Assembly: GCF_016862795.1 (NCBI RefSeq)
Contig: NZ_BONQ01000044.1
Coordinates: forward strand, 1-64,000
Direction: 5' to 3'
Origin: Dactylosporangium siamense
GTDB lineage: Bacteria > Actinomycetota > Actinomycetes > Mycobacteriales > Micromonosporaceae
DNA length: 64,000 bases
In this document: piece after piece, positions 38,633-46,388 of the stretch
Layout: every line of letters starts with the position of its first letter
How positions within the stretch are numbered: the first letter of the stretch is position 1
The notes under the pieces: generated by a model
The model's database searches: none
Seen by the model: the letters and a program-made list of their open reading frames with translations, nothing else
Told to the model about the DNA's origin: nothing
Translations under genes and position numbers: made by a program

Positions 38633-39610
38633 TTGTCCACAGGCACGAACTCGTGCTGGCGCACCGGCCGGGACGGTCCCACCCTCGACAAGGTGCGTGC
38701 AGAGGAACAGGCCGGTGTCATCACCCGCGGCCAAGCGGTCGCGGAAGGCATCTCCGCGGACCAGATCCGCAGGCGGCTGCGAACGGGCCGGTGGCAGCGG
38801 GCCTTCGCCGGGGTGTACTACACCTTCTCCGGCAAGCCGACCCGCCCCGCGGTGCTGTGGGCGGCGCTGCTGACCGCGGGCCCGGATGCCGTGCTGAGCC
38901 ATCAGACGGCCGCGGAGCTCATCGGCCTGATCGACCGGCCGGAACCACCGATCCACGTCAGCGTGCCATGGCAACGGCATGTCAGGCCGATCGAAGGCGT
39001 CTGGACGCACCGCCGTCACCGCACGCCCACCGAAGCATCGGCGCGGGACCCGGCCCGCACCGGTGTGGAGGACACCGTTGTGGACCTGACCCAGGCCGCG
39101 AAGGACGTCGACGCGGCGGTCGCCTGGATCGCGCGGGCGTGCAACCGGAGGTTGACGACACCGGACCGGCTCCGCATGGCGTTCTCCGCCCGCGAGCGGC
39201 TGCGCTGGCGGGAGGCGCTGACTGCCGCCGTCGCCGATGTCGCGGCCGGCTGCCACTCGGTGCTGGAGCTGCGTTACCTGCGCGACGTCGAGCGGCCGCA
39301 CGGGCTGCCGCCGGGCACCCGGCAGCGCAGGCGGCAGGACCGGGGCGCGACGACGTACAGCGACGTGGAGTATGAGCCGTTCGGCCTCGTCGTCGAGCTC
39401 GACGGCAGGGCGGTGCACGAGGACCCCGGCCACGACCGGCTCCGTGACCACGTCAGCGCCGTGCGGGGACGGATCACGCTGCGGTTCGGCTGGGCAGATG
39501 TGCACCGGCGCCCGTGCGTGAGCGCCGCCGCGGTCGCCGTCCTCCTCCGCCGCGCCGGCTGGCCCTCGTCGCCGACGCGCTGCGGACCGAAGTGCCGACT
39601 ACCTGGTTGA
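38633..39610 (+). CDS. AbiEi-type winged-helix plus DUF559-like nuclease-fold protein, solitary
   Basis: A 325-residue protein. The N-terminal segment (VITRGQAVAEGISADQIRRR, then GRWQRAFAGVYY) is the AbiEi antitoxin-type winged helix. The C-terminal part, YEPFGLVVELDGRAVHEDPG and LRFGWADVHRRP, resembles the DUF559/Vsr-like PD-(D/E)XK fold with possible acidic residues. Such proteins are common in actinobacteria, usually without an AbiEii partner, and their role is unknown. The start is uncertain: TTG at 38633 or GTG at 38693. A perfect inverted repeat overlaps its stop. Confidence 0.7.
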   Translation: MSTGTNSCWRTGRDGPTLDKVRAEEQAGVITRGQAVAEGISADQIRRRLRTGRWQRAFAGVYYTFSGKPTRPAVLWAALLTAGPDAVLSHQTAAELIGLIDRPEPPIHVSVPWQRHVRPIEGVWTHRRHRTPTEASARDPARTGVEDTVVDLTQAAKDVDAAVAWIARACNRRLTTPDRLRMAFSARERLRWREALTAAVADVAAGCHSVLELRYLRDVERPHGLPPGTRQRRRQDRGATTYSDVEYEPFGLVVELDGRAVHEDPGHDRLRDHVSAVRGRITLRFGWADVHRRPCVSAAAVAVLLRRAGWPSSPTRCGPKCRLPG

Positions 39611-39648
39611 TTACTGGCCGCGGGCGACCACCGATCAACCAGGTAGTC
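39597..39648. repeat. 15-bp-arm inverted repeat overlapping the AbiEi-like stop
   Basis: GACTACCTGGTTGAT and ATCAACCAGGTAGTC are perfect arms around a 22-base GC-rich loop. The left arm contains the last codons and the TGA of the gene. It may be a terminator, although there is no T-run, or a member of a dispersed repeat family. Confidence 0.7.
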
Positions 39649-39719
39649 GAGGTCGCTCCGCTGTCGGCGAACACCGCGGGGTGGGACGGGGACGGTGGGG
39701 CGGCGGTATCGTCAGGGTG

Positions 39720-39797
39720 GGCAGTGCGCCTGCCTGAGCCACGACACGGTCGCCCACGCCGGCCGTGACCCGAGGCCAAGAGGCTCAGACTCAGCGC
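39720..39797 (+). ncRNA. Candidate structured leader RNA, copy A
   Basis: It starts 13 bases after the first base of a -10-like TATCGT (39707). P1 is GGCAG-TGCGC-CTGCC (39720-39734). P2 joins GCCACG (39738-39743) with CGAGGC (39771-39776) with one A-A mismatch. P3 is an 8-bp stem (CACGGTCG / CGGCCGTG, one G-U) capped by CCCACGC (39753-39759). The 3' part CAAGAGGCTC-A-GACTCAGCGC follows, and its final GCGC can pair with GCGC in the P1 loop. The 344-codon gene begins 73 bases later, behind a further CGGCGGA/TCCGCCG hairpin. Copy B is at 43998-44073. Confidence 0.65.
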
Positions 39798-39870
39798 GGC
39801 GGTGCAGGCTGCCCGGCGGAGTTCCGCCGTCCGATCGGTGCGGGCGTGGGTCGACGCCGGAGGTCTCGTG

Positions 39871-40905
39871 ATGGCAGACGAAGCGGACAACCAGGACCCT
39901 CACCGCGCCGCGGAACCCGACAAGCAGGAGCCCCAACCCGACGGCCAGGCGCCCGGCCCCGCCGCGGAGGAGTCCGGCGGCGGGCAGGTCGGTTCGGGTG
40001 GACGGGCGCGGCGCGACCGGAAGCGCCGGCGCGCGATCAGGGCACACGCCGCGCAGGCCGGCATCGCCTACTCGGTCGCCGCCCGCCAGCTCGCCGGAGC
40101 CGGCGTCGGACCGGGTGAGAGCTTCGCGAGCCTCGGCCGGACCGTGTACCCGTCCGGCGTGCCGGGCCGGTGGACCATCATCGGCCGGGAGCTGCGACCC
40201 GCCGCGGTGAAGCTCCACGACACCCGCCGCGCCGCACGCCTCGCGGGTGGACGGGCCGCACACCTGGTGGAGCGGTTCCCCGCGGGTGAGAGCCACGCGG
40301 GTCCCTGCTACGCCGGTGATGGGCTCGAAGACCTCCTCGCCATGCTGTACCTGGTAGTGGTGCGGGAGGCGCCCGGGCTGGTCCCGGCCGCGATGGACCT
40401 CGCCTGGACCGCGGAGCTCGGGGAGGAGACGGCCGTCGACATGGAGTGCGCGGAGGTCGACCGGGCCGCCCGGCTGGTCCTCGACGACGGGGTCGCCGAG
40501 CTGTGGGGGCGGGTCGAGGACGCGTTGCGGGCGGGCCAGGACAACGCGAGCCCCGCGGTGCGGCACGACGCGGACCGGCTGACACTGGTCTGCCGCACGT
40601 TCACGATGCCGGTCGAGGGTGCTGACGGTGAGCCGTACGTGCTGCGCGCCCCCTGGGACGGCGCGGGTCAGGTGCTCGACGCGCTCCTCGTCGTCGCCGA
40701 CGACGGTCACGCCCCGGGGACCAGGATCCGGCTCGCGGGGTCACCGTCGACCGGCACGATCGTCGGCGCGGCCTGGGGTGCGGTGGGGCCACCGCGGCGA
40801 TACGACGTCCGCCTCGACACCGACCCCGGGACCCGCTCGATGCGCCCCGACGACCTCGTCGTCCTGCCCGGCCAGGAGTCCGACGCCGCAGCCCTCCAGG
40901 TCTGA
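39871..40905 (+). CDS. Protein of unknown function (344 aa) behind structured leader A
   Basis: The first 60 residues are acidic, Pro/Gln/Gly-rich and probably disordered. A basic patch RRDRKRRRAIRAHAAQAG runs into IAYSVAARQLAGAG (about residues 68-81), a short motif I associate with many actinobacterial proteins of unknown role. The rest is a folded alpha/beta domain with ERFPAGESHAGPCYAGDGLE and MLYLVVVREAPGLVPAAMDL. There is no signal peptide or catalytic motif I can name. GGAGG lies 7 bases before the ATG. Its expression is probably controlled through the conserved leader, shared with the ClpC paralogue at 44130. Confidence 0.6.
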   Translation: MADEADNQDPHRAAEPDKQEPQPDGQAPGPAAEESGGGQVGSGGRARRDRKRRRAIRAHAAQAGIAYSVAARQLAGAGVGPGESFASLGRTVYPSGVPGRWTIIGRELRPAAVKLHDTRRAARLAGGRAAHLVERFPAGESHAGPCYAGDGLEDLLAMLYLVVVREAPGLVPAAMDLAWTAELGEETAVDMECAEVDRAARLVLDDGVAELWGRVEDALRAGQDNASPAVRHDADRLTLVCRTFTMPVEGADGEPYVLRAPWDGAGQVLDALLVVADDGHAPGTRIRLAGSPSTGTIVGAAWGAVGPPRRYDVRLDTDPGTRSMRPDDLVVLPGQESDAAALQV

Positions 40906-40964
40906 CCGGACCGACCGGCGCGCGACAGGCACAACGCCGCCAGACCAACCTCGCTGACCATCGT

Positions 40965-41024
40965 CTCGTGATCAAAGCCGCGGACCGGTCGCTCCGACGA
41001 CCGGCACACGGCTTCGATCACGAG
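40965..41024. repeat. Long nested inverted repeat after the 344-aa gene
   Basis: CTCGTGATC-A-AAGCC pairs with GGCTT-C-GATCACGAG (14 of 15), enclosing an inner CCGGTCG/CGACCGG stem. It lies between two convergent genes and may end transcription from the left; its right end runs straight into the 41021 direct repeats. Confidence 0.6.
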
Positions 41025-41230
41025 CAGGAGCCGGCCCGAGACCGGGTCACGCCCGGTGAGGAGGCGGGCAGGCGACACACGGCACCCGGCGCGACACACG
41101 AGCAGGCCCCGCGACCGGTCACGCCCGGTGAGGAGGCGGGCAGGCGACGCGCGGCGCGCGGCGCGACACACGAGCAGGCCCCGCGACTGGTCATGCCTCG
41201 GCGAGGAGGCGGGCGATCGGCAGGCGGCGC
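41021..41230. repeat. Three direct repeats, the last inside the end of the FtsX-like gene
   Basis: Copies begin CGAGCAGG at 41021, 41099 and 41171 (units of 78 and 72 bp) and share GGTGAGGAGGCGGGCAGGCG and CGGCGCGACACACGAGCAGG. The third copy diverges and merges into the last codons of the minus-strand permease gene (stop at 41191). The first two therefore look like duplicates of the gene end plus downstream DNA. No spacer-like unique sequence is present. Confidence 0.75.
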
Positions 41231-43911
41231 AGGGCACGCAGCGGGATCGTGGCCGCCGCGACGGTGACGAGCAGGCCGGCCACCGCGGCGCCGGCGGCCG
41301 CGAGCCAGACCGGGCCGGGCAGCGCCCCGCCGAGGGCGTAGGCCAGGCCGAGGCTGATCCCGGTGCCGAGGAGCGCGCCGACCGTCCCGAGCGCGACGGC
41401 CTCGTAGCCGGCGAGTCGCACGAGCAGGTGGTCGCCCCAGCCGCTGGCGCCGAGGAGGGCGAACTCGCCGGCCCGTTCGCGGATGCCGCGGTACAGCACG
41501 TCGGCGACCGCGGCCGCGCCGAGCAGGATCGTGAGCACGGCGGCGAGGTAGTCGGTGCCGCGGACCTGGACGGTGACCGCGTCGCCGAGGACGGTGCCGC
41601 TGACCGTGCCGCGGAAGCCGATGGTGAGCACGGCGAGGAACGTGAGCGCGGCGACGCCGATGGCGAGGCTGAGCACGCCGACCAGGGTGCGGCCGGGGGT
41701 GCGCAGCAGGTTCGTCCAGGCGAGGCCGGCGATCCTGCGCGGGGTGCGGGCCCGCCGGACCGTGCTGACCGCCGGCCGGACCGCGGCGACCGGGTCGGTG
41801 CGGTTGGCCCGCCAGGCGGGTTGCAGCGCGGCGAGGACGCTGAGCAGCAGCGCGGCCGGCACGGCGACGGCCGCGGCGGTCCATTGCAGGGTGATCCCGA
41901 GCGCCGGGGCGGCCGCGAGGGCGATCACGGTCCCGGCCAGGCCGGCGGACAGGCCGAGGGCCAGGGCCTCGGTCAGGACCAGGCCGAACAGCCGGCGGCC
42001 GGGCCAGCCGAGGCAGGCCAGGACGGCGAGCTCCGTGTGCCGGGCGCGCAGCGCGGCACCGGTGGCGTTGGCGACGGCGAGGACGCAGGCGACGAGGACC
42101 AGCCCGGCGAGCAGGAGGCTCTTGCGGTCGATCGCGGAGACGACCACGGTCGCGACGCCGGTGCGCAGCCACGGCTGGTCGACCGTCAGCGCGGGACGGC
42201 CGTGGACGCCGGCGGGCACGGCCAGGTCGGCGGGCGCGACGGACGAGCCGACGGTCAGGTCGACCCGCAGGCCGGTCGCCTGCTGGATGCGCTCGGCGAC
42301 GGCCCGGACCCGCTCCTGCGACAGCTTGTCCATGCCGACGTCGCCGCTGACCCGCACCCGCACCGTGTTGATCGGCGCCTCGGCGAAGCCCGGCGACGCG
42401 GCCGCGGGCGGCGGTGCGTACGGCGGCTGGCGCAGCGCCGTCATCGCCGACAGGCTGGTGAGCAGCGTCGGCCGCGCCGCCGCGGGGCCGCCGATGTTGC
42501 CGCCGGGCAGCAGGGTCCGGTTGCCGAGGGCGGTGCGGGACGCGGCGTCGGCGCCGGTGAGGGCGGGGTCGCCGGTCAGCGAGGCCGGCAGCGTGGCCAG
42601 GGGCGGGCCGGCGTCGAGCTTCGCCGGGTCGAACGTGCCGATGCCCTGCAGCCTGACCGGCGGCACGGAGCCGGGGCCGGTGTATTCGGCGCCGACCCGG
42701 GGCAGGGCGCGGACGTGCGGATCGGTCAGCTCCAGGGGCAGCGGGTTGTACCAGACGCCGTTGTCGGCGGAGCCGCCCCAGTCGCCGGTCGCCGGTTGGG
42801 CCGCGCCGGCCGCGCCGGGCAGCCAGTACTGGCCGACCAGGGTCCGTCGCCGCGCCCAGTCGGGCGACCCGTCCGATGCGGGTGCGGAGAGGTCGGCGAG
42901 CAGCTGTCGGTAGACGTCGGAGACGTCCACGGTGCGTTCGTCGACGGTACCGCCGCGATCAGCCTCGAAGACGTCGAGCAGGTTGTCCAGGCGCACCCCG
43001 GCCGCACCCGAAGCGGCGGAACCGTCGGAGAGCCGGTCGATGCGCAGCTGCAACTGCCGGTCCACGGCGGGGGTCGTCGAGGCGAGGACGGGCACCTGGC
43101 CGGGGGTGGCGGGGCGGGTGAGGGCGGTGGTGTCGAGGCCGTTGAGGCGGGCCTCCTGCGCGGGGTCCACGGCGGCCATGACCATCGGCAGGCTGAACGC
43201 CACGTACACCTCGGCCCGTTGGGGCTGCTCGACGGTGGAGCGGGGATTGCTGGACCAGCAGGCCAGGTCCTTGCGGTGCTTCGGGTCGAGCGGGTCGGTC
43301 ATGCCGATCGTGCGAGCGAGCGCCTCGCAGACCTCGGTGCGGGAGCCGTCGGCGCCGATCCGCCAGATGTGCTCGCGTTCGGGGATCTCGTCGCCGGTGT
43401 ACATGCGGCCCTGCTCCCACGGCTCGCCGGGCTGGAGCTCCAGCTCGTCGCCGGTGGCCCAGAGGTAGACGGCGCCGTCGGTGGCGCTGGTCAGGCCGCG
43501 GTCGGAGAGCCAGGTCGGCAGGACCCGCAGCGCCTGCTGCGGCAGGCCGGGGCGCAGCTGCCCGGTGAGGTCGACGGGCAGGCGCACGGTCTGCATGAAC
43601 GTGCCGACGGGAGCGAGCGGCGCGGCGACGTCGACGCCCGGCAGGGCCTGAATGTCGTGCCACTGCTGCAGGGTGATGCCGCCGTATCGGGTGCCGACCT
43701 GGTCGAACCCGATCTGCCCGGGGCCGGCGTCCGCGGGTCGCACGAGGATGTCGTACAGCGGGCGGAAGTTCGCCTGCACGGTGCCGGTCGCCCGCACCTG
43801 CGCGCCGCGGGCGGCGGACAGCAGCAGCGAGAACCCGGCGACCGCGATCGCGACGGCCAGCAGCGTGGCGACGAACCGCCCCCGCTGATGGCGTAGCTGT
43901 GCAAGGACCAT
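41191..43911 (-). CDS. FtsX-like ABC transporter permease, large, without adjacent ATPase
   Basis: A 906-residue membrane protein of the MacB/FtsX permease type. It has an N-terminal span (about residues 12-34), a very long extracytoplasmic domain (about 35-590), then spans near 607-630, 650-700 and 750-890. The C-terminal FtsX block is RERAGEFALLGASGWGDHLL, and a similar block, RARHTELAVLACLGWPGRRL, is in the middle, so it holds two FtsX modules. Such permeases export lipids, peptides or act mechanically with an ATPase; none is next to it. It is divergent from the ClpC paralogue across the structured leader B. Confidence 0.85.
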   Translation of the reverse strand: MVLAQLRHQRGRFVATLLAVAIAVAGFSLLLSAARGAQVRATGTVQANFRPLYDILVRPADAGPGQIGFDQVGTRYGGITLQQWHDIQALPGVDVAAPLAPVGTFMQTVRLPVDLTGQLRPGLPQQALRVLPTWLSDRGLTSATDGAVYLWATGDELELQPGEPWEQGRMYTGDEIPEREHIWRIGADGSRTEVCEALARTIGMTDPLDPKHRKDLACWSSNPRSTVEQPQRAEVYVAFSLPMVMAAVDPAQEARLNGLDTTALTRPATPGQVPVLASTTPAVDRQLQLRIDRLSDGSAASGAAGVRLDNLLDVFEADRGGTVDERTVDVSDVYRQLLADLSAPASDGSPDWARRRTLVGQYWLPGAAGAAQPATGDWGGSADNGVWYNPLPLELTDPHVRALPRVGAEYTGPGSVPPVRLQGIGTFDPAKLDAGPPLATLPASLTGDPALTGADAASRTALGNRTLLPGGNIGGPAAARPTLLTSLSAMTALRQPPYAPPPAAASPGFAEAPINTVRVRVSGDVGMDKLSQERVRAVAERIQQATGLRVDLTVGSSVAPADLAVPAGVHGRPALTVDQPWLRTGVATVVVSAIDRKSLLLAGLVLVACVLAVANATGAALRARHTELAVLACLGWPGRRLFGLVLTEALALGLSAGLAGTVIALAAAPALGITLQWTAAAVAVPAALLLSVLAALQPAWRANRTDPVAAVRPAVSTVRRARTPRRIAGLAWTNLLRTPGRTLVGVLSLAIGVAALTFLAVLTIGFRGTVSGTVLGDAVTVQVRGTDYLAAVLTILLGAAAVADVLYRGIRERAGEFALLGASGWGDHLLVRLAGYEAVALGTVGALLGTGISLGLAYALGGALPGPVWLAAAGAAVAGLLVTVAAATIPLRALRRLPIARLLAEA

Positions 43912-43997
43912 CGATCTCTCCCCCCGTCAGAGAGCGCTCTCCGGCCAGCTTGCCGCTTGTCTCGACCGGCTGTCAACGCCTCGGCTATGGTTGATAC

Positions 43998-44073
43998 GGC
44001 AGCGCGCCTGCCCGTGCCGCGGATCGACGGAGCCCACGCCTCCGCCGGCGGCCAAGAGGCTCCGACTCAGCGC
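43998..44073 (+). ncRNA. Candidate structured leader RNA, copy B
   Basis: It begins 12 bases after the first base of a -10-like TATGGT (43986). P1 is GGCAG-CGCGC-CTGCC (43998-44012). P2 joins GCCGC (44016-44020) with GCGGC (44048-44052). P3 is CGGAG/CTCCG (44028-44032 with 44040-44044) capped by CCCACGC, the same loop as copy A on an unrelated stem. The 3' part CAAGAGGCTC-C-GACTCAGCGC matches copy A at all positions but one, and its GCGC can pair with the P1 loop. GCATCCG/CGGATGC forms a hairpin directly after, and the clpC-like ATG is 57 bases downstream. Confidence 0.65.
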
Positions 44074-44129
44074 ATCCGTTCCGTGCGGATGCCGGGTGCG
44101 TGGGGCCCCGCCGAAAAGGCGTGATCGTC

Positions 44130-46388
44130 ATGTTCGAGCGGTTCACCGACCGGGCCAAACGCGCCGTCGTGCTGGCGCAGGAGGAAGCCCGGATCCTCAA
44201 CCACAACTCCATCGGCACCGAGCACCTGCTGCTGGGCCTCATCCAGGAGGGCGACGGCGCGGCGGCCAGGAGCATCGACGCCATCGGCGTGTCCGTCGAG
44301 GACGTGCGGCGGCAGGTCGAGGAGATCATCGGCCTGGGTTCGCAGGCGCCGGGTGCGCACATCCCGTTCACACCGCGGGCCAAGAAGGTCCTCGAGCTCG
44401 CGCTGCGCGAGGCGTTGCAGCTCGGGCACAACTACATCGGCACCGAGCACATCCTGCTCGGCCTCGTCCGGGAGGGTGAGGGCGTCGCGGCGCAGGTCCT
44501 GATCCGCCTCGGCGCCGACCTCAACCGGCTGCGCGCCCAGGTGATCCAGCTGCTGTCCGGCCACCCGTCCGCCCCGGTGCCCGACGCCACGTCGGTCCCC
44601 TCCTCCACCGTGCTCGACCAGTTCGGGGTGAACCTCACCGCGGCCGCCCGCGACGGGCTGCTCGACCCGGTGATCGGGCGGACCGCCGAGGTGGAGCGGG
44701 TCATCCGGGTGCTGTCCCGGCGGCGCAAGAACAGCCCGGTGCTGACCGGCGCGCCGGGCGTCGGCAAGACCGCCGTGGTGGAGGGCCTCGCGCAGCGCAT
44801 CGTCGCCGGTGACGTGCCCGAATCACTCAAAGGGCGGCAGCTGTACACCCTGGACCTGGGCGCTCTCGTGGCCGGCTCGCGGTACCGGGGCGATTTTGAG
44901 GAACGGCTGAAGAAGGTCACCAAGGAGGTCCGCGGGCGCGGCGACATCATCCTGTTCATCGACGAGATCCACAACCTGGTCGGGGCGGGCGCGGCCGAGG
45001 GCGCGATCGACGCGGCGTCGCTGCTCAAGCCGCTGCTGGCGCGGGGTGAGCTGCGGACCATCGGGGCGACGACGGACGAGGAGTACCGGCGGTACATCAG
45101 CAAGGACGGGGCGCTCGACCGGCGCTTCCAGCCGGTGCCGGTCCCCGAGCCGACCGCGGAGGACACGGTGCTGATCCTGCACGGGTTGCGGGAGCGGTAC
45201 GCGTCGCATCACGGAGTCACGTACACCGACGCGGCGCTGCGGGCGGCGGCGCTGCTGGCCGACCGGTACATCGCGGACCGGCACCTGCCGGACAAGGCGA
45301 TCGACCTGCTCGACGAGGCGGGCACGGCCGGCGCCGCGGTCGTCGGCCCGGACGAGATCGCGGCGGTGCTGTCCACGTGGACCGGCATTCCCGTACACCG
45401 GCTGACCGAGCAGGAAAGCGCCCGGCTGCTGCGGATGGAGCAGACCCTGCACGAGGACCTGGTCGGGCAGGACCTCGCGGTGGCGGCGGTGTCCCGCGCG
45501 ATCCGCCGGACCCGGGCCGGGCTGAAGGACCCGCGCCGCCCCGCCGGGTCGTTCATCTTCGCCGGGCCGTCCGGCGTCGGGAAGTCGTCCCTGGCCAAGG
45601 CCCTGGCGGGGTTCCTGTTCGGCACCTCCGACGCGCTGATCCAGCTGGACATGTCGGAGTTCCACGACCGGGCGACCGTGTCGCGGCTGGTCGGCGCGCC
45701 GCCCGGCTACGTCGGCTACGACGACGGCGGCCAGCTGACCGAGCAGGTGCGCCGCCGGCCGTTCTCGGTGGTGCTCTTCGACGAGGTGGAGAAGGCGCAC
45801 CCGGACGTCTTCAACGCGTTGCTGCAGATCCTGGAGGACGGCCGGCTCACCGACGGGCAGGGCCGCGTCGTGGACTTCAAGCACACGGTGCTCATCCTCA
45901 CGACCAACCTCGGCACCCGCGACCTGCAGCTGCAGGCGGGCTTCCAGTCCTCGGCGGTCCCGCAGTACGAGCGGATGCGCCAGAAGGTCGACGACGAGCT
46001 CAAGCGGCACTTCCGGCCGGAGTTCCTGAACCGGATCGACGACACGGTCGTCTTCCACCAGCTCGGCCCCGTCGAGGTCGCCGGCATCGTGGACCGGATC
46101 CTGCTGGACGTGGCGTCGCGGCTGGCGCTGCGCGACATCGGCCTGGTCGTGACGCCGGCGGCCCGGCAGCTGCTGGCCGAACGCGGCCACGACCCGGTGC
46201 TCGGCGCCAGGCCACTGCGGCGCACCGTGCAGCGGGAGGTCGAGGACCCGCTGTCATCGCAGATCCTGCTGGGTTCGCTGCGGGCCGGGGACACGGTGAC
46301 CATCGACCGCGGTGAGGAGAGTCTCACGTTCACCACGCCCTCTCGCGTCACACCCTCTCGCGTACCGCTTGAGCAAGTGCTTAAATAG
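44130..46388 (+). CDS. ClpC-type AAA+ unfoldase paralogue lacking the middle (UVR) domain
   Basis: A 752-residue Clp/Hsp100 ATPase. Two Clp N repeats (1-145), NBD1 with Walker [16 protein letters not shown] (about 208) and Walker [14 protein letters not shown]2 with [15 protein letters not shown] and [13 protein letters not shown]. After NBD1, [13 protein letters not shown] runs almost directly into [13 protein letters not shown], so the 60-70-residue middle domain of ClpC is missing. The ClpP-docking loop, normally (I/L/V)GF, reads QAGFQSS. It may unfold or disaggregate proteins with altered ClpP dependence. The ATG at 44130 matches ClpC starts. No clpP or mcsA/B is near. A TetR operator overlaps its stop. 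Confidence 0.88.
46369..46384. promoter_or_regulatory. TetR-type operator 1
   Basis: TTGAGCAAGTGCTTAA is an imperfect dyad at the very end of the clpC-like coding region. It shares the TTGAGC..TGCT.AA pattern with operator 2, whose centre is 26 bp away. Confidence 0.65.

Follow-up and report, generated by a model that had tools for sequence, protein, structure and literature searches.

The window analysed here, the whole 64,000-nucleotide (nt) stretch of contig NZ_BONQ01000044.1 from Dactylosporangium siamense, carries two copies of a structured RNA leader, one upstream of a gene for a 344-amino-acid (aa) protein (protein B, gene B) and the other upstream of a gene for a second ClpC. This leader is almost certainly a selected cis-acting RNA. 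It is a member of a seemingly undescribed RNA family that occurs across soil actinobacteria and on rhizobial plasmids, and in most cases examined the RNA precedes, or adjoins, a gene with one short basic protein tag, hereafter the module. A preliminary description of the two leaders had placed a TATSGT box, the stems P1, P2 and P3, an identical P3 loop and a 3' motif in the window, and a sequence check found all of them at these positions; its label of a shared regulatory module fits the pair as judged from sequence. Its structural account held for P1, P2, P3 and the pseudoknot and was incomplete, as it missed a loop-loop pairing, the stem P4 and the N-terminal protein module.

Structure and covariation of the leader RNA

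The leader is ~135-150 nt long and consists of a pseudoknotted core (P1, P2, P4 and a pseudoknot between the P1 loop and a 3' strand), to which the side arm P3 and, close to the Shine-Dalgarno sequence, a further hairpin, P5, are added (Table 1). The 3' motif, CCAAGAGGCTC-M-GACTCAGCGC, ends at 39797 in copy 1 and at 44073 in copy 2. The P3 stem has 8 base pairs (bp) in copy 1 and 5 bp in copy 2, with the loop CCCACGC in both, and the junction after P2, CAAG or CAAAG, is highly conserved across the family.

We extracted 69 distinct instances from 66 loci and aligned 55 of them (alignment A2), leaving out 10 short or long ones and 4 others. In A2, 89.5% of the cells were paired, compared with 29.5-41.0% when the pairing was slid, and the covariation score was 0.236 against 0.094 after shuffling. 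In a divergent set of 34 sequences the values were 88.2% against 26-48% and 0.348 against 0.135. A third alignment, A7, comprised 18 leaders (7 of them alphaproteobacterial) out of 27, the others having a misplaced start, being of another type or having decayed (L240, L243; L numbers denote loci); here 95.3% of the cells were paired over P1, the pseudoknot, P2, P3, the kissing pairs and P5, against 38-54% when slid. The covariation score exceeded all 500 shuffles in each of the three alignments. The number of two-sided pairs was reached by 2 of 500 shuffles for A2 and 3 of 500 for A7, and the number of pair types by 25 of 500 for A7, where P1 and the kissing pairs contribute no covariation because both are invariant.

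Two-sided changes occurred in P1, P2 and P3 in both A2 and the 34-sequence set, and in P4 in the latter only. Outside A2, the pseudoknot that the preliminary description had drawn between the P1 loop and the 3' GCGC was borne out by compensatory changes, namely ACGC/GCGT (L044), TCCGC/GCGGA (L081), CACGC/GCGTG (L170) and CCGTGA/TCACGG (L172), to which CCCG/CGGG (L168) can be added. Covariation on 55 and on 34 sequences upheld its reading of a selected RNA structure, and supports P1-P4 together with the P1-loop pseudoknot. As in a riboswitch, the core is aptamer-like, conserved and covarying, and lies in a 5' leader.

A TANNNT box was located 9-18 nt 5' of P1 in 66 of the 69 instances, compared with 1 of 276 control positions lying further 5', which makes P1 the probable start of the RNA, in copy 1 of the window too. 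A promoter scan of either window leader found no sigma-70 consensus pair. Terminator-like sites were absent from the two window leaders, as was a run of four T within 110 nt 3' of the core from all 69 instances, and a transcription terminator switch was rejected on these grounds.

Kissing interaction between the P3 and P5 loops

The 7-nt P3 loop, CCCACGC, is complementary to the loop GCGTGGG of P5, a hairpin 5' of the Shine-Dalgarno sequence. An extra hairpin before the start codon had already been noted for both leaders; it is present in both, and its loop is the one that complements P3. In the first set, which was counted without the minus-strand loci L073, L076 and L078 (these are in the larger count below), 64 of 66 instances had an exact complement and one more had a complement with wobble, against 2.4 (maximum 7) in base-shuffled downstream regions. 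The larger count covered 119 instances with the loop, 56 loops being taken by rule and 63 named by hand, and many instances being close relatives rather than independent events: 111 had an exact 7-nt complement, 116 were complete when wobbles were allowed, 2 had six pairs and one (L084) had none. When the loops were permuted among the 119 instances, the mean was 51.2 exact complements and the maximum 66 (1000 permutations).

Nine loop types were each found with their own exact complement: CCCACGC, CTCACGC, CCCACGT, CCCGCGC, CCTACGC, GCCTACG, CCACGCC, CCCCAGC and CCCATGC, the registers of two rare ones among them (L032 CCACGCC and L097 GCCTACG) having been chosen to fit the complement. Of 48 instances with a variant loop, 40 carried the complement of their own loop exactly and 8 the commonest one, and GCGTGGG was found in none of 13 instances without this P3 loop. 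An automatic loop-pair search, blind to the loop and to the RNA, returned the interaction upstream of 26 of 35 genes found by their proteins, which are not 26 independent events because many of the 35 are close relatives; the controls gave 3.1 of 35 in dinucleotide shuffles (maximum 7) and 41 of 245 in other segments of the same loci.

Two further local switches were considered. An anti-Shine-Dalgarno hairpin formed by the 3' strand of P5 was seen by eye in g30, L026 and L040 and is not general, because it is absent in L001, L045 and L149. Also rejected was a GACTC/GAGTC switch lying 3' of the short clpC leaders, which is present in L013, L019 and L020 and missing from L012.

Occurrence of the RNA family

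Two copies of the 22-nt 3' motif are present in the window, and with up to 3 mismatches allowed it was absent from all 100 dinucleotide shuffles; a 21-nt form occurs twice in the whole 12.7-megabase genome. The covariance model R1, built from the 55 A2 instances, recovered the two window leaders from their own genome, the next best matches having expectation values (E) of only 5.6 and worse. With up to 3 mismatches the motif was found in 72 of 200 genomes of the window's family, own genome included, the loosest of these matches including chance ones (a reversed-pattern control also matches); with at most one mismatch it occurred at 50 places in the same 200-genome table. Most members from this family were first found by that motif, which in part explains why they are conserved in it; it does not include the P3 loop, P5 or the module.

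Among 397 genomes of the order, R1 recovered the RNA from 18, of which 4 belong to another family; among 394 genomes of the class, R1 recovered it from 3 and a second model, R2, from 10 (own genome included in both class counts). A pattern of P1 and GGACAAG only matched 61 stretches in about 85,000 named genomes, and on reading, 46 were judged chance and 15 real. The latter come from Lentzea, Kribbella, Actinophytocola, Pseudonocardia, Pseudofrankia, Trebonia, Micromonospora, Saccharothrix, two Streptosporangiaceae, Amycolatopsis, Planomonospora, Nocardiopsis, Frankia and one contig filed under Armatimonadota.

At the gathering cut-off of Rfam 15 (4227 families), neither the window nor 20 divergent loci had any match, and permissive searches with four leaders gave nothing, or only low-scoring unrelated families; membership of a known Rfam family was thus rejected. 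These results agree with the preliminary description, which had not recognised a described riboswitch, and neither the Rfam comparison nor the many further copies in related genomes went against its reading. Literature searches and term searches of published candidate-RNA scans, with subscription papers and supplements outside their reach, returned nothing like this RNA. Identity with a tRNA or transfer-messenger RNA was dismissed, as the window contains neither. A phage origin was also rejected: one pattern gave 2 matches in viral contigs, both chance by reading, and one module peptide had no match in phage records.

Downstream genes and the protein module

The RNA searches yielded 102 distinct instances, which precede a gene for ClpC (50), a protein with the basic module (42) or another product (8), or are truncated (2). 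Among the eight, the module is further in at L036 and L039 and looks degenerate at L083 and L172, and none was recognised at L057, L084, L168 and L171. The module is an N-terminal, basic stretch of ~25 residues resembling R-A-x-x-A-x-T-G-E-x-Y-x-x-A-A-R, and the domains that follow it are unrelated: KH_2, CN_hydrolase, DUF4287 with AHSA1, BtrH_N with DUF4872, and alpha/beta hydrolase. It is kept at the amino-acid level, since codons differ in 1731 of 3410 same-residue pairs. The scanned downstream proteins (KH_2, CN_hydrolase, DUF4287-AHSA1, BtrH_N, alpha/beta hydrolase and ClpC) share no common pathway or metabolite.

A profile of the module matched 39 of 246 genomes of the class, own genome included. 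At 29 other loci found with this profile, four of which (L205, L206, L208 and L209) are genes whose RNA was already known, R2 detected the RNA upstream in 18 at E<1 and missed 11, and by eye it was recognised in 28 of the 29, all but L229. The RNA was also at the expected place in L196, L197, L198, L200 and L201, which the module profile had found as well.

The preliminary description had called the two downstream genes of the window unrelated, and this was the case: protein B has no Pfam family, and the other product is a ClpC paralogue. Pfam, NCBIfam, PADLOC and PDB sequence searches gave no identification of protein B. Its AlphaFold2 model (mean predicted local distance difference test score 83.7) places the module in two helices (43-63 and 67-77), followed by a helical middle and a C-terminal beta domain. 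Foldseek returned no match at E<=0.001, and the KOW-like matches of the C-terminal part start at E 0.43, which is not significant. Hypothetical proteins on six Streptomyces plasmids (e.g. NZ_CP029602.1 23297-23824) match residues about 130-320 of protein B at about 30% identity, with the module outside the match.

The canonical ClpC of the same genome, encoded on contig C89, is 76% identical to the second ClpC over the N-terminal half and has ~69 aa more in its middle part, and a canonical-like ClpC was found elsewhere in each of nine other genomes searched. The RNA-associated ClpC of G520 retains the ~69-aa stretch between the ATPase domains. In 20 of 20 tested genomes with RNA-clpC, the module profile found a module gene (E<1e-9) within 5 kilobases of it; 3 genomes lacking the RNA gave no match, or one at E 0.02. 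The module gene of g30 is oriented divergently from RNA-clpC and shows no RNA of its own.

Possible transfer and occurrence in a second phylum

Plasmids from Sinorhizobium, Rhizobium, Phyllobacterium, Microvirga and Streptomyces carry carbon-nitrogen hydrolase genes with the module. Of nine leaders read from rhizobia and Microvirga, seven had the RNA and the kissing loops; L243, from Sinorhizobium, has the RNA with a changed P3 loop and has lost the start codon of the module, and L240, also from Sinorhizobium, lacks P1. When R2 was applied to five plasmid leaders, it matched L236 (E 0.0043), L239 (0.12) and L238 (0.36) and missed L235 and L237.

RNAs and module genes that closely resemble one another were seen at L093, L100, L104 (KH_2 in the domain scan), L108, L129 and L153, in Lentzea, Pseudonocardia, Pseudofrankia, Trebonia, Saccharothrix and Streptosporangiaceae. 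Since RNA and module genes are so similar across these taxa, horizontal transfer among the six loci is suggested.

Proposed control and alternative explanations

Our preferred reading, held tentatively, is autogenous feedback: the module protein may bind the leader core, either that of its own gene or that of the neighbouring clpC, and control translation through P3-P5 kissing. The module, in the finished protein or possibly in the nascent chain, would contact the pseudoknot core and stabilise the kissing complex near the Shine-Dalgarno sequence, and translation initiation would then be lowered, as in the autogenous loops of ribosomal-protein leaders. Repression, as opposed to activation, by the complex is a guess. 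The lack of terminator-like sites, the lack of a T run after the core and the position near the Shine-Dalgarno sequence make translation the likelier level of control. Since the RNA is linked with the module irrespective of the function of the enzyme, a protein partner is favoured over a metabolite. RNA and module would travel jointly as one gene-start cassette joined to unrelated enzymes. A wider claim, which we put forward with similar reserve, is that this would be a new kind of bipartite cassette, in which a pseudoknot leader, a loop-loop lock and a short peptide module recognising it bring unrelated enzymes, and a second ClpC via the neighbouring module gene, under a common RNA-plus-tag control, both across Actinomycetota and, through transfer, on plasmids of rhizobia.

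Several observations weigh against autogenous feedback or against parts of the structure. The module had no Pfam match at E<=1 in 9 proteins and nothing significant in PDB (best E 0.23), so its RNA binding is guessed from its charge. Module genes beside RNA-ClpC in the g30 and g19 genus groups were read without an RNA of their own, so autoregulation cannot be universal. The pairing of RNA and module has exceptions in both directions, L229 having the module without the RNA and L171 the RNA without a visible module, and in Sinorhizobium L240 the leader of an annotated gene has lost P1. P4 carries a G-A mismatch in both window copies and in 43 of the 55 A2 sequences; in A2, neither P4 nor the pseudoknot shows two-sided changes, the latter being invariant. 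As for the kissing pairs, to the hand-named loops and close relatives mentioned above are added the carbon-nitrogen hydrolase group, in which P5 lies about 15 nt 5' of the Shine-Dalgarno sequence instead of adjoining it, and L084, which has a core with neither a complement nor an obvious gene.

The strongest competitor, itself rather unlikely, is a riboswitch whose core binds a small molecule or ion and thereby alters P3-P5 kissing and access to the Shine-Dalgarno sequence, the module being separate, e.g. a targeting tag for the same response. The compact pseudoknot with its conserved CAAG/CAAAG junction, the dispensable accessory arm and the partner hairpin near the Shine-Dalgarno sequence would suit such a sensor, but the examined targets have no common pathway, which is unusual for a metabolite sensor, and what they share is the module.

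An RNA thermometer or general stress sensor, in which the loop-loop complex would respond to temperature, magnesium or ribosome loading and control the second ClpC and stress proteins, is improbable. A Clp unfoldase is indeed the commonest target (50 of 102, in a set dominated by the window's family), but the elaborate conserved pseudoknot exceeds what a thermometer needs, and the hydrolase, BtrH-like and KH-domain targets are not known as heat-shock genes. Quite improbable, too, is a trans-acting or protein-sequestering RNA, cut from the leader as a type III antitoxin-like or processed small RNA and binding the module protein: an RNA followed by its likely protein partner, and a single compact pseudoknotted unit, would agree with it, but the leader pairs over a long range with the Shine-Dalgarno region of its own mRNA, which speaks for action in cis, and the window leaders have no tandem repeat. 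A DNA-level element, such as a regulator-binding or recombination site that merely resembles an RNA, would account for a cassette before different genes in two phyla and is highly improbable given that, over all sets together, two-sided changes are seen in the stems P1 to P5, in the pseudoknot and in the kissing pairs, and given the fixed place and strand relative to promoter and gene; the DNA-binding site reading was rejected by covariation.

Comparison with known systems and significance

Ribosomal-protein leader RNAs exert autogenous control. They are alike in being structured 5' leaders near the Shine-Dalgarno sequence before a gene whose product has a basic, possibly RNA-binding part; here, by contrast, a ~25-aa module with putative binding and no known ribosome role is fused to unrelated enzymes, and a second ClpC is also a target. 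The preQ1-II, SAM-II and guanidine-II riboswitches are translational riboswitches with pseudoknots or kissing loops, and share a compact pseudoknot or loop-loop contact that is in some tied to access to the ribosome-binding site. Unlike them, this RNA has neither an Rfam match nor a common target pathway, and the kissing partner lies about 60-100 nt 3' of the P3 loop. A type III toxin-antitoxin RNA consists of tandem pseudoknot repeats before a ToxN-like gene, whereas a single core per gene was read here and neither window leader contains a tandem repeat; ToxN homology was looked for via Pfam and NCBIfam searches of protein B.

ANTAR RNAs are dual hexaloop hairpins. Here, a 7-nt P3 loop pairs with the P5 loop and a pseudoknot is added, two hexaloops are lacking, and there is no Rfam match. 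ANTAR-target RNAs occur in actinobacteria (PMC8164766). They are recognised by a protein and act on translation or transcription; the present family is likewise actinobacterial, its recognition by a protein and its regulatory role being putative. A scan of 50 Streptomyces genomes reported candidate RNAs including the dauA, livJ, pntA and asfR motifs (PMC11109978). These are likewise candidate structured leaders in actinobacteria, with different downstream genes, and the terms clp, hydrolase and kissing are absent from the main text of that report, its supplements lying outside the search.

Rfam 15 lacks this structured RNA, which is widespread and well supported. Its long-range kissing interaction is backed by matching two-sided changes, and it comes with a candidate partner, a protein module of ~25 residues. 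If the module binds the RNA, the two would form a minimal, portable control unit of RNA and peptide that has been joined to several enzymes as well as to an unfoldase of protein quality control, and that could serve expression control in actinobacteria and rhizobia. If a ligand is sensed instead, this would be a new riboswitch class with an unusual regulon. The pairing of RNA and tag hints at a new bacterial way of controlling many unrelated proteins.

Features of the window

Table 1. Positions of the leader elements and downstream genes in the window
Feature	Position	Strand	Basis
Copy 1, -10-like box TATCGT	39707..39712	+	sequence
Copy 1, P1 hairpin GGCAG-TGCGC-CTGCC; loop GCGC (39726-39729) pseudoknots with 39794-39797	39720..39734	+	sequence, covariation, compensatory changes (L044, L081, L170, L172)
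Copy 1, P2 (39738-39740 with 39774-39776) around P3 (39745-39752 with 39760-39767)	39738..39776	+	covariation alignments
Copy 1, P3 loop CCCACGC, half of the loop-loop (kissing) interaction	39753..39759	+	loop complement tests
Copy 1, P4 (39780-39784 with 39788-39792, one G-A mismatch) and 3' pseudoknot strand GCGC (39794-39797)	39780..39797	+	covariation; GGTTC/GAATC and GGGCC/GGTTC variants
Copy 1, P5 hairpin (39837-39842 with 39852-39858); loop element GCGTGGG (39844-39850), complement of the P3 loop	39837..39858	+	loop complement tests
Copy 1, Shine-Dalgarno GGAGG, immediately 3' of P5	39859..39863	+	sequence
Gene B (344 aa): basic module RRAIRAHAAQAGIAYSVAARQL at the N-terminus, then a helical middle and, at the C-terminus, a KOW/SH3-like fold (not significant)	39871..40905	+	
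Copy 2, -10-like box TATGGT	43986..43991	+	sequence
Copy 2, P1 hairpin GGCAG-CGCGC-CTGCC; loop GCGC (44004-44007) pseudoknots with 44070-44073	43998..44012	+	sequence, covariation
Copy 2, P2 (44016-44019 with 44049-44052) around P3 (44028-44032 with 44040-44044)	44016..44052	+	sequence
Copy 2, P3 loop CCCACGC	44033..44039	+	loop complement tests
Copy 2, P4 (44056-44060 with 44064-44068, one G-A mismatch) and pseudoknot strand GCGC (44070-44073)	44056..44073	+	covariation
Copy 2, P5 hairpin (CGGG 44093-44096 with CCCG 44107-44110); loop element GCGTGGG (44098-44104)	44093..44110	+	loop complement tests
Second ClpC, 752 aa, without ~69 aa between the two ATPase domains present in the genome's canonical ClpC	44130..46388	+	

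A perfect 13-bp inverted repeat, CTACCTGGTTGAT/ATCAACCAGGTAG (39599-39611 and 39634-39646), lies between an AbiEi-like gene and copy 1. On the 3' side of gene B, an imperfect inverted repeat, CGTGATCAAAGCC / GGCTTCGATCACG (40965-41026), is followed by 2.6 tandem copies of a 72-base unit (41028-41214).

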